A stretch of 45,200 bases of DNA. Source: a bacterium. Lineage in GTDB: Bacteria > UBP15 > UBA6099 > JAJRTR01. The position numbers and the translations under genes are program-made. Positions 25,837-29,970 of the stretch are shown here, one piece after another. Every line of letters starts with the position of its first letter. Positions within the stretch are counted from its first letter, which is position 1. The stretch is taken from contig JAJRTR010000153.1 in assembly GCA_024278215.1 (NCBI GenBank), positions 1-45,200 on the forward strand. Reading direction: 5' to 3'. The notes under the pieces were generated by a model. The model did no database searches, was not told where the DNA came from, and was given only the letters and a program-made list of their open reading frames with translations.

Positions 25837-26574
25837 CTATTGCAGCTTACCTTGGCGGCGGGCTGTTTCGAAGATGGTCGCCGCAGCCGCGACGGATATG
25901 TTTAATGATGGAAAATCCGGATTCGTGGGAATCCGCAACAGAAAGTCGGACTCGTCTTTTGTCAGCCTCGACAAACCTTCCCCCTCGCTGCCGAACACAA
26001 GAACGAGCGGCATGGCGAGGTCGTGAGTGTAGCAGTTTTCTTTCGCCCTTTCGTCCGTGCCGGCAATCCAGCAGCCCCAGTCTTTCAGCTTTCGCAATGC
26101 CTGCCGCAAGTTTGCAACTCGAGCTATCGGCACAATATCCGCGCCGCCGCATGACGTCTCATAAACCGTCTCAGTAACTTCGCAACATCGTTTTTTTTCA
26201 ATAATAAAACCATCGGCGCTCACGGCGGCTGCCGTGCGTATAATCGCGCCGAGATTCCGGGGGTCCTGAATATGATCGACCGCGATAACGAGCGCACCGT
26301 CGCCGCTGTTACGTACGTTTTCGCCTATCAGCTCGATGTCCACATATTCAAATGGTTCGCAGTGCGCTTCGATGTCGGCTGTGCGTCTGCCCCTGCCGCC
26401 GCGACCACGCGGCGAGTCGGGAGGCGCCTTGTGAATCACAATGTTTCCGCCTCGCGCTATCGACAGCAGTTCGTTGATTTTTTTATCTGAAACATATTTG
26501 GGATTGACAGTCAGCGACTTGACTCTTCCCGCCCTCATCGCTTCATATATGGAATTCTTATCTCTTATTATCAT
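25837..26574 (-). CDS. rlmB: SpoU-type rRNA 2'-O-methyltransferase, RlmB-like
   Basis: This 245-residue SPOUT methyltransferase methylates a ribose 2'-OH, in RlmB at G2251 of 23S rRNA. Its SpoU motifs are DHIQDPRNLGAIIRTA (motif 1), LVFGSEGEGLSRL (motif 2) and SLNISVAAAA (motif 3). A substrate-binding N-domain (about 1-75) includes a basic RGRGGRGRR loop. The gene overlaps ispF by 17 bases. The yacL-ispF-rlmB order matches the Firmicutes yacL...rlmB (yacO) region. The exact target base is inferred. Confidence 0.9.
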   Translation of the reverse strand: MIIRDKNSIYEAMRAGRVKSLTVNPKYVSDKKINELLSIARGGNIVIHKAPPDSPRGRGGRGRRTADIEAHCEPFEYVDIELIGENVRNSGDGALVIAVDHIQDPRNLGAIIRTAAAVSADGFIIEKKRCCEVTETVYETSCGGADIVPIARVANLRQALRKLKDWGCWIAGTDERAKENCYTHDLAMPLVLVFGSEGEGLSRLTKDESDFLLRIPTNPDFPSLNISVAAAATIFETARRQGKLQ

Positions 26575-27061
26575 CTTTTCTTATCAGGCTTGCAACGCAT
26601 CGGGCCGAGATGCCCTCGCCCCTGCCTTCGGGTCCGAGTCCTTCGGGCGATTTCGCCCTGACCCCCACTCTGTCCGGCTTGATTCGCAATGCGTTCGCCA
26701 AATTTTCCTTTATACTATTTATGTACGGTGCCAATCGTGGCTCCTGCGCGACTACTACGGAGTCGATGTTGTTGACCGAAAAACATTTTTCTTCAATCAT
26801 GCCTGCGACACTGCCGAGAAGTATCATGCTGTCGATGTCCTTATATTCGGGATTATCCGCAGGAAAAAGTGTGCCGATGTCGGGCAGGCCGGCGGCGCCA
26901 AGGAGCGCGTCGCAAACTGCGTGCACGAGCGCGTCCGCGTCCGAATGGCCTTGCAGTCCGTAAGCGAACGGTATCTCGACGCCGCCCAGTTTCAGAGGCC
27001 CCGGCGCTGCAAGCGGATGCACATCCCAGCCGATCCCAACCCTGAACAGATCGTCAGACAT
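26558..27061 (-). CDS. ispF: 2-C-methyl-D-erythritol 2,4-cyclodiphosphate synthase
   Basis: IspF forms the cyclic diphosphate in the MEP pathway of isoprenoid synthesis. It is about 167 residues long. RVGIGWDVHPL carries metal-binding Asp and His, GHSDADALVHAVCDALLGA is the family signature, and PDIGTLFP and AKSPEGLGPEGRGEGI follow. Start 27061 fits the family N-terminus and has AGGA upstream; an ATG at 27079 is less likely. It overlaps yacL by eight bases and rlmB by 17. The usual partner ispD is absent. Confidence 0.96.
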   Translation of the reverse strand: MSDDLFRVGIGWDVHPLAAPGPLKLGGVEIPFAYGLQGHSDADALVHAVCDALLGAAGLPDIGTLFPADNPEYKDIDSMILLGSVAGMIEEKCFSVNNIDSVVVAQEPRLAPYINSIKENLANALRIKPDRVGVRAKSPEGLGPEGRGEGISARCVASLIRKDDNKR

Positions 27062-28157
27062 CTTCTCTGTCCTGATCATTATCGTTGTTCGTGGGAGAGT
27101 CCTGAATGATAGTAGCGAAGATCAGCCGCCCGGCGACAGACTGCATGATGTTTTTGATCTCGACCTCGAGTGTCTCGCCGATCTTTTTGTCGCCGTGTTC
27201 GATAACCACCATCGTGCCGTCGTCAAGGTAGGCGATCCCCTGCCCGTGTTCCTTGCCGTATTTTACGACATTGACTACCATGGTTTCGCCCGGCAACAGG
27301 CTACGGCGCAGGCTGCCTGCAAGCGTGTTGAGATTGTAGACCCGCACTCCCCTGAGTTCGGCGATTTTCGAGAGGTTGAAATCGTTTGTCACGAGCACGG
27401 CGGCAATGGATTTGCTGTAGTTCACGAGCCGGGCGTCAACAGCAGTCGCTTCGCCCGCGCGCGGCGCAGGCATATCTATGACTTCAAGTTCGATGTCTTC
27501 TCTTTCCTTGATTTTTGTGATAACGTCCAGTCCTCTGCGACCGCGCTTGCGGCGCAATCCGTCCGAGTCGTCTGCGATTCCCTGCAACTCGTTAAGTACA
27601 ATATCGGGAACAAAAAGCTTGCCCTCGATGAAATTATTTTCAAGCAGTCCCAGTATCCTGCCGTCGATCAGAACACTTGTGTCGAGCACTTTTGGCTTCG
27701 CCGCGTCGATACGATAGGCCGTCGTGCTGACAATGTTGCCGCCCCATAGCGAAACCCGGCTGAAGATCAGAACTCCAAGATAGCCGAAAATAATACTGGC
27801 GAGAATGGTCAGTCCCAGATTCAGTGTCCTCATGTCACCGGCAAACAGCCACAACGGCAATGTCACGAGAATTGCGAAAAGGAATCCCATCAGGAGACCG
27901 ATAAAACCTGACGCCAGCGCATGAGGAGAAAACCGCTGCAGCGATCTCATTATCTGCTTATGCAACATCAGCAGCCAGCGCTCGGTATACGGGGCTATCA
28001 GTAATCCGAATAAAAAACCTGCGCTGACAAATCCCGCGTTGTTATATAACTCGGACTGGTAATCCGTCAGGTATGCGCGGTTGAACATATCGGACAGGCG
28101 GTAGAACAACAACATTCCACCGGATATGCAGATTATGCGGACTAATAACGCAAACAT
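27054..28157 (-). CDS. YacL-like PIN/TRAM membrane protein
   Basis: This 367-residue protein has four N-terminal membrane helices (about 1-20, 40-60, 83-107, 113-135). A PIN nuclease-like domain follows (VLDTSVLIDGRI with the first acidic residues, VNELQGIADD, ATAVDARLV, LVTNDFNLSKIA). A C-terminal TRAM RNA-binding domain (about 290-345) completes it. This is the YacL architecture of Firmicutes and other phyla. The acidic PIN residues look intact, so RNA cleavage is possible but unproven in the family. It leads the operon with ispF and rlmB. Confidence 0.92.
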   Translation of the reverse strand: MFALLVRIICISGGMLLFYRLSDMFNRAYLTDYQSELYNNAGFVSAGFLFGLLIAPYTERWLLMLHKQIMRSLQRFSPHALASGFIGLLMGFLFAILVTLPLWLFAGDMRTLNLGLTILASIIFGYLGVLIFSRVSLWGGNIVSTTAYRIDAAKPKVLDTSVLIDGRILGLLENNFIEGKLFVPDIVLNELQGIADDSDGLRRKRGRRGLDVITKIKEREDIELEVIDMPAPRAGEATAVDARLVNYSKSIAAVLVTNDFNLSKIAELRGVRVYNLNTLAGSLRRSLLPGETMVVNVVKYGKEHGQGIAYLDDGTMVVIEHGDKKIGETLEVEIKNIMQSVAGRLIFATIIQDSPTNNDNDQDREDV

Positions 28158-28316: not shown

Positions 28317-28350
28317 TCACATATCAGGCAGGGCGTTTCGGGAGATGAAT

Positions 28351-29970
28351 ATGAAGTGCAGCAAGTGTCATGAAAACAATGCCGCGTATTATATATCGCA
28401 CCAGTCGTCAGGCGGCGCGTCGATTGGATTCTGCGATACATGCGCGGAAGAGATCGGTATTTTCTCGGTGCTCAGGCGTGTCGAGTCGCTTATGCACGGC
28501 TACGGAATGAAGACCGATGGATTGAGCGTGCTGCAACAATCAGATTTCCCCATCGATTTCGCCGAAGAGTGTAAAACTTGCGGAACGGAACTGCGCGAGT
28601 TCGAGCGGCGCTTCTATTTCGGGTGCGAAGAGTGCGGCATCGTGTTCGGATCGTTAATCAGCAATTACCTGACGCTGCTCGGTGGAAACACGAAAGACGT
28701 GTCTTCAGTTTATCACGGCACACCGCCTCTGAGCTATCGTGAAAAAATCGATATTCATACTGCCGAAAAAAAATTGAACGAAAAGATCGACGCTGAAAAC
28801 TACACAGCCGCTGAAGCAGGAAAAGCAAGGCTCGAAAAGCTCGAAGAAAAAAGAGCGCGCCGCCTGTGTCGCGCTTCCTCCTATGTTAAAAAAGGTAAAA
28901 CCAGAATCCCCGAAGCAGGGAAAAGCGAAAGAAACCGGATATTGCAGAAATCAGGCGTTTTTGCCCGTGGAGACCGCAACTGGCTGATGTCTTCCATAGA
29001 AATCAGGAGAAATTTCAGCGATTACAAGTTCCCCACAAAAAGTGACGGGGCAATGAAGGAATTTGTACGCCGATACGCATCCGGATTGCTGACTGAAAAA
29101 TATGCAAGAGGCCTTAAAACTATCTTATGGGACGAATGTGCGCCCGCGGAAAGAAACGCGCTCCAGACAAGCCTGATCGGCCGCAGACTCTTTCCACAAT
29201 CAAGTATTCTCACAGATTCAACGATGAACCGGGTTGTACTGCTTAATAATATGGACCATATAACCGTTCTTTCGAGAACCGGCGAACAGGACGCGGGAAC
29301 TGCCGTCGCGCAGGCGCTCGAACCTCTCAAAGGCATCGAACGCAAAGCAGACATCGCTTTTTCCAGCAGGTTCGGATATGTCACGGCTGTTCCGAAATAT
29401 CTCGGCACCGGTCTTTCGGCTTCCGTCCTATTGCATCTTCCCTACAGTCTTTTCAAAGGCCGCACATATTCTATTCCAAGTCTCTGTGCCGCAAAATCCA
29501 TCAAATGTGAACCACTCGTAGGCAACAACTTTGATCAGCACGGCTTTTTCAAAATTTCAAGCACAGTGGGTTTCAGCCGTAGCGAAGAAGATATCGTCGC
29601 CGAAGTTTTCGACTTCGCGGCAGGCCTTATAGATGAGGAAAGTATCATCAGGGCCGAACTCAAACCGAGCGAGACCCGGCGCATCGCAAACTCAATGAAG
29701 AAAGTTCTTTATCACGCCACACGCTCCTACCGTCTGTCATATTCCGACGCGCTTAGTTTCACTACTTTTCTCCATCTCGGGCTTGAGAATGATGTAGCGG
29801 ATATACCGGGTTTCCGCCTCGACGACGTTATCCCCTGTCTTTCTTCCGCATTCATTATGTACCGCGACGGCGGCAGGCGATACACCGTCAATATCTGCGA
29901 AAAGAGACGCGCCGACCTCTATGCCGACCTTGTCGAATCCTGGCAGCAGCCGGCAATAACCGGTGTTTGA
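28351..29970 (+). CDS. McsA-McsB-like fusion, probable arginine-kinase pseudoenzyme
   Basis: About 539 residues. The N-terminal part is McsA-like: MKCSKC, GFCDTC, EECKTC and FGCEECG give four CxxC pairs, then a UVR-type helix (EKIDAENYTAAEAGKARLEK). The C-terminal ~330 residues align with protein-arginine kinase McsB (RRNFSDYKFPT; GYVTAVPKYLGTG then SASVLLHLP). Key residues are changed: SSRIR to SSIEI, NEEDHIR to NNMDHIT, and the catalytic Cys in CPTN to VPKY. Kinase activity is therefore unlikely. The start at 28351 is chosen because GGGAG lies six bases upstream. Firmicutes mcsA and mcsB are separate genes near yacL. Confidence 0.85.
   Translation: MKCSKCHENNAAYYISHQSSGGASIGFCDTCAEEIGIFSVLRRVESLMHGYGMKTDGLSVLQQSDFPIDFAEECKTCGTELREFERRFYFGCEECGIVFGSLISNYLTLLGGNTKDVSSVYHGTPPLSYREKIDIHTAEKKLNEKIDAENYTAAEAGKARLEKLEEKRARRLCRASSYVKKGKTRIPEAGKSERNRILQKSGVFARGDRNWLMSSIEIRRNFSDYKFPTKSDGAMKEFVRRYASGLLTEKYARGLKTILWDECAPAERNALQTSLIGRRLFPQSSILTDSTMNRVVLLNNMDHITVLSRTGEQDAGTAVAQALEPLKGIERKADIAFSSRFGYVTAVPKYLGTGLSASVLLHLPYSLFKGRTYSIPSLCAAKSIKCEPLVGNNFDQHGFFKISSTVGFSRSEEDIVAEVFDFAAGLIDEESIIRAELKPSETRRIANSMKKVLYHATRSYRLSYSDALSFTTFLHLGLENDVADIPGFRLDDVIPCLSSAFIMYRDGGRRYTVNICEKRRADLYADLVESWQQPAITGV

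Follow-up and report, generated by a model that had tools for sequence, protein, structure and literature searches.

A gene joining McsA and McsB

The window, i.e. the whole stretch of 45,200 nucleotides analysed here, carried on its forward strand a gene in which McsA and McsB are joined. An open frame ran uninterrupted from 28345 to 29970 (+) and coded for 541 aa counted from its first ATG. Position 28351 appeared to be a better start than 28345, since a GGGAG stands at 28340-28344 and the relatives begin with MKCSKC; from this ATG, the product (28351-29970, +) has 539 residues. Signs of a broken gene were absent: there were no internal stops and the frame was kept in the relatives. The features are given below, with residues of B. 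subtilis McsB followed by their counterparts in the window protein.

28340..28344, + strand: GGGAG, which probably serves the ATG at 28351 as ribosome-binding site (read by eye)
28351..29970, + strand: predicted McsA-pseudoMcsB fusion gene, 539 aa (ORF; PDB, Pfam and NCBIfam matches)
28351..28650, + strand: McsA zinc-finger part with four CxxC pairs (McsA profile match)
28735..28860, + strand: McsA C-terminal UVR-like helix region (LNEKIDAENYTAAEAGKARLEKLEEK), which the McsA profile match reaches; less conserved in G002
28984..29658, + strand: McsB phosphotransferase domain, catalytic residues lost (PDB match, alignment)
28990..29013, + strand: SSRIRLARN site, R29 to S215 and R31 to E217, with R34 and N35 retained and A33 replaced by the order-invariant R219 (alignment)
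29245..29265, + strand: NEEDHIR site, here NNMDHIT, E121 to M301 and R125 to T305 (alignment)
29356..29385, + strand: AFS.RFGY loop, retained (alignment); in S. aureus McsB, the corresponding loop is where the McsA zinc finger docks (PMC12467219)
29389..29418, + strand: CPTN..GTGLR site, here VPKYLGTGLS, C167 to V347 and R176 to S356 (alignment)
29506..29526, + strand: RG..GE site, here EP..GN, R207-G208 to the order-invariant E387-P388 and E212 to N392 (alignment)
29659..29967, + strand: McsB dimerisation and phosphoarginine (pArg) receptor domain (alignment)
29896..29916, + strand: pArg receptor motif RDxxRA, here CEKRRAD, R337 to C516, D338 to E517 and R341 kept as R520 (CE.RRAD invariant in the order)

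The N-terminal part of the fusion matched the NCBIfam McsA model (1.7e-11, whole-protein search) as well as the McsA chain of PDB entry 8WTB (chain B, 1.4e-5). Its CxxC pairs, located at residues 3/6, 28/31, 74/77 and 92/95, represent two zinc fingers' worth, as looked for in an McsA, and all eight cysteines were retained in the four fusions of the order. Likewise, the C-terminal part matched PDB McsB chains at 2e-17, the family profile at 1.5e-24 and, far above the cut-off, Pfam ATP-gua_Ptrans (PF00217) at 3e-20. The NCBIfam McsB equivalog gave 76.8 bits against a cut-off of 500, under which most intact sampled McsBs also fell, and other McsB models scored the fusion at 43-96 bits, all below cut-off. 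Predicted structures reached a pLDDT of 42 for the whole protein and 49 for the McsB half, each from a three-sequence alignment. Little weight is given to a Foldseek search with the low-confidence model of the McsB half, whose top matches were all McsB (E 3e-12, TM 0.32).

An earlier note on this DNA had described a McsA-McsB fusion with an intact 539-residue frame, four CxxC pairs in its McsA part and an alignment to McsB along its C-terminal half. This description was borne out: McsA and a full-length McsB lie in frame, and the homology covers both the phosphotransferase and the dimerisation domains.

Catalytic residues of the McsB half

Eight residues were scored, namely R29, R31, R125, R176, R207, E121, E212 and C167 in the numbering of B. 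subtilis McsB, whose reference sequence and the PDB chain are in agreement over the aligned part. By homology with phosphagen kinases, and following what is established for the structures of arginine kinase and McsB, we take the five arginines to bind the ATP phosphates, E121 and E212 to bind the guanidinium group and C167 to be the catalytic residue. The alignment comprised 114 McsB rows, coming from a search of 386 genomes spread over the domain, from the members of the window's order and from B. subtilis McsB itself.

None of the eight residues was found in the window protein, versus all eight in 77 intact McsBs. The phosphate-binding arginines R29, R31, R125, R176 and R207 were replaced by S215, E217, T305, S356 and E387, respectively, two of them (R31 and R207) thereby being swapped for acidic residues. 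The substrate carboxylates E121 and E212 had become M301 and N392, and the catalytic C167 had become V347. The substitutions pointed out in the earlier note were all real (the Cys to Val change in CPTN, now VPKY; the lost arginines of SSRIR, now MSSIE; and NEEDHIR, now NNMDHIT), and three further losses were added to them, i.e. R176 to S (GLRASV to GLSASV), R207 to E and E212 to N. Judged from its residues, the McsB half is a predicted pseudokinase, devoid of phosphate-binding arginine, guanidinium-binding carboxylate and catalytic cysteine.

Relatives in the order and selection

The fusion was the single PF00217 protein detected in the window's genome by profile search. Three of the order's six further genomes (G001, G006 and G002) carried the same fusion, at 38-39% identity and spread over three families, and the four sequences formed one clade with full support and a long stem. 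No PF00217 match was recorded in G003, G004 and G005, incomplete MAGs that do carry ClpC, including G003, which is 92% complete and belongs to the same genus as two fusion carriers. These absences are uncertain, due to the incompleteness of the MAGs and to the fact that a gene located near mcsAB in G001 and G006 is missing there too.

All four fusions had lost C167, R31, R125, R207 and E212. One of the eight residues (R29) was retained in G001 and G006, and three (R29, E121 and R176) in G002. The core loss is thus common to the order, and the remaining losses came later. Between G001 and G006, dN was 0.019 and dS 0.135, i.e. a dN/dS of about 0.14, which indicates purifying selection. By part, the ratio was about 0.07 for McsA and about 0.34 for the phosphotransferase domain, figures that rest on 20 nonsynonymous codons. 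Among the columns near-invariant in active McsBs, 59% of the others were retained in the order versus 17% of the eight catalytic ones. New order-specific invariants appeared both in the old active site (R219 for A33, E387-P388 for R207-G208) and in the pArg pocket (Y464 for S285, C516-E517 for R337-D338). Together with purifying selection, these invariants argue for a conserved and repurposed protein rather than one in decay. The earlier note had proposed to follow the substitutions across relatives and to estimate dN/dS, and both outcomes agree with its view of a catalytically dead yet retained protein: eight of eight residues are lost, three relatives display parallel loss and selection is purifying.

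Phosphoarginine pocket, partner genes and neighbourhood

In B. subtilis McsB, the receptor for pArg relies on R337, R341, S285 and D338, and the R337A/D338A mutant is disrupted in its pArg-dependent oligomers (PMC8370763). The counterparts of R337, D338, R341 and S285 in the fusion are C516, E517, R520 and Y464, i.e. one residue kept and one conservatively replaced, a set that is invariant in the order.

ClpC, recognised by its N-domain proteins, was present in all seven genomes of the order. In the window's genome, clpC lies on another contig (L003) and is followed by a CarD-like gene. CtsR gave no match in these seven genomes (profile search; MAGs incomplete) and, among the controls, matched only in Lactococcus. 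The control B. subtilis genome gave no match for any of PF00217, Clp_N and CtsR, all of which this species possesses; the clpC operon may be absent from that genome or masked in it, and the control is therefore imperfect. No intact McsB that the McsA part could activate was found in the window's genome (profile search, PF00217). The YwlE loop motif CTGNTCR was absent from the four fusion-carrying genomes (DNA pattern search; MAGs incomplete), and the retrieved proteins of the LMW phosphatase family carried loops of the CTGNS.RSQMAE type or similar. We take the latter to be arsenate-reductase (ArsC)-like and distinct from the YwlE loop CTGNTCRS. Within the limits set by incomplete MAGs, pArg writer, eraser and classical target all appear to be missing or altered. 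Residues E32 and E106, which we assume to be the pArg contacts of the ClpC N-domain, were considered as a discriminator and rejected, as they were kept in all ClpCs of the order, fusion-less genomes included.

Genes rlmB, ispF and PIN-TRAM adjoin the fusion divergently on the opposite strand (25837-28157). In Firmicutes, rlmB, ispF and PIN-TRAM genes lie near the clpC operon (clpC-radA-disA-yacL-ispDF-rlmB), a neighbourhood that these genes recall. The neighbours of the G001 and G006 fusions differ from those in the window.

McsBs without catalytic residues in other bacteria

Loss of the McsB catalytic residues is not unique to the window's fusion. We called an McsB dead when no more than five of the eight were present, a line of our own and a residue count that is not equivalent to an assay. 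Accordingly defined, dead McsBs made up 31 of the 114, four belonging to the window's order and the other 27 to 19 family-level groups from elsewhere. Among these 27 are L101, L103-L116, L122-L126, L128-L130, L133 and L137, each being the sole McsB match of its genome. An McsA carrying paired CxxC adjoined most dead McsBs, and clpC often followed downstream; McsA was not detectable near six divergent ones (L111, L112, L113, L115, L116 and L126). On the best tree, a quick one with long branches, no fewer than seven changes are needed, of which the well-supported branches force just two. The YwlE motif was rarer with dead McsBs (2/31 vs 18/49, Fisher p 0.003), a comparison for which a phylogeny-aware test had too few independent pairs.

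Two McsBs with none of the eight residues, L100:3914-4984 and L097 (genomes G258 and G382), were assigned to Chlamydia by gene order (rpsB-tsf-pyrH-frr-tRNAs-mcsA-mcsB-tRNA-secretin). Both adjoin an intact McsA, and the YwlE motif was absent from both genomes. Their tRNA flanks agree with a published description (PMC10128030), and chlamydial McsB has been described as an arginine kinase (PMC10128030, PMC11708050). Judged from sequence, these chlamydial McsBs are without the residues on which the known reaction depends.

A second type of fusion was encountered in L119 (G178:C46), where McsA is joined to a kinase with eight of eight residues. Its intact kinase and different position in the tree point to a separate fusion event; it was seen in one MAG and may be an assembly effect. 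The earlier note had held that relatives with the same fusion and an intact Cys and Arg set would speak against its reading: the close relatives were all dead, whereas this distant fusion was intact. Fusion and catalytic death would thus be separable. L114, L117, L118 and L120, whose length had suggested fusions, were rejected as such since they are read-throughs of an upstream other frame.

In L131, L098, L102, L142 and L144, Ser was found in place of the catalytic Cys and nearly all other catalytic residues were kept. The C167S change inactivates B. subtilis McsB.

Proposed function and alternatives

The fused McsA-pseudoMcsB might form a constitutive complex, an adaptor or scaffold for ClpC that does not depend on phosphorylation; this is our preferred reading, and we give it close to, but less than, an even chance. 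The fusion would lock McsA and McsB into a permanent 1:1 complex by which phosphoarginine is no longer written, and this complex would serve the ClpC unfoldase without phosphorylation. The McsB fold, the McsA zinc fingers and the UVR-like helix would supply the surfaces for client and ClpC binding, to which the zinc fingers might add redox control. We infer both bindings and consider the adaptor role plausible. In its favour are the retained McsA cysteines and docking loop and the ClpC found in all seven genomes of the order. A regulator of active McsB is not expected, since the genome has no second PF00217 protein. In B. subtilis, McsB C167S retains a partial effect on MgsR turnover, read by its authors as a kinase-independent adaptor activity (PMC7235348), and McsB freed from McsA removes CtsR from DNA without kinase action (PMC5506225). 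Counting against a ClpC adaptor, fusion and clpC are on different contigs, three genomes of the order have ClpC without a fusion match, and stimulation of ClpC by McsB in B. subtilis was reported to require kinase activity (PMC5506225).

The earlier note had suggested a non-kinase role as adaptor or phosphoarginine reader; the adaptor part stands as plausible while the reader part was weakened. A dead kinase that kept its C-terminal pocket could deliver pArg-marked proteins, and with R341 kept and D338 changed to Glu, a guanidinium/phosphate site might persist. Yet, R337 has become Cys and S285 Tyr throughout the order, at a site where the B. subtilis double mutation breaks pArg-dependent oligomers, and neither a pArg writer nor a YwlE-type motif was found on searching the genome, its LMW phosphatase loops being ArsC-like, which makes a reader improbable. 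It is more doubtful still that the protein remains a kinase through an active site rebuilt from other residues or acting on another substrate. The new invariants R219 and E387-P388 in the old active site could be taken that way, and some pseudokinases elsewhere proved to have other activities; however, nothing is left of the phosphate-binding arginines, the two carboxylates or the cysteine, and two of the arginines are now acidic.

The McsA part might also carry the function, e.g. redox or zinc sensing, with the McsB half only as oligomerisation scaffold. This agrees with the lower dN/dS of the McsA part between G001 and G006 and with its eight conserved cysteines, but these ratios depend on few codons, and that the McsB half is not drifting is indicated by its order invariants and by motifs conserved at an overall identity of 38%; we regard this explanation as rather unlikely. 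Decay towards loss, as the lack of a match in G003, G004 and G005 could suggest, is hardly credible and already contradicted by the unbroken frame of 539 aa, an identity of 38-39% among three families, a dN/dS of 0.14 and order-specific invariants, the absences falling in incomplete MAGs from which the gene near mcsAB is also missing.

As to the family at large, a role of the pair with ClpC that is free of kinase action would predict dead McsBs beside intact McsA, often with clpC, and McsB seems to have a job needing no kinase activity. It is possible, and here our doubts somewhat outweigh our confidence, that McsA and McsB jointly serve an old function free of arginine phosphorylation, probably as ClpC adaptor or scaffold, that catalysis was lost repeatedly (including in Chlamydia) while the pair was kept, and that the window's fusion goes furthest, the two partners having merged into a single non-catalytic protein.

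Homologues of McsB, the model protein-arginine kinase, receive a kinase annotation by default, which the dead fusion shows can mislead. As a natural separation-of-function protein, the fusion is also of use for a question from B. subtilis, in which the adaptor role is not easily told apart from the kinase role (PMC5506225), and the survey bears on the plan to map the McsB-directed phosphoproteome of Chlamydia (PMC11708050). No description of McsB as a pseudokinase was found in the open-licence literature, which is weak evidence of novelty, and priority is not claimed.

Comparison with known systems

The McsA activator (PDB 8WTB chain B) resembles the N-terminal part of the fusion in having four CxxC pairs and, at its C-terminus, a UVR-like region, but stands alone as a protein. 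McsA classically positions the catalytic Cys of McsB, a role that is without target in the window's fusion. With the McsB kinases of B. subtilis, G. stearothermophilus and S. aureus (PDB 6TV6, 6FH1 and 8GQD), the fusion shares both homologous domains and the McsA-docking loop; it differs by the loss of the eight catalytic residues, an altered pArg pocket and the fusion to McsA, and no CtsR or YwlE-type partner was found. Dead McsBs elsewhere, including those of Chlamydia, likewise have lost most or all catalytic residues with McsA present, but are encoded by separate genes and are not close to the window's fusion in the tree. L119 displays the same arrangement, McsA then McsB in one frame, and differs by its intact kinase.
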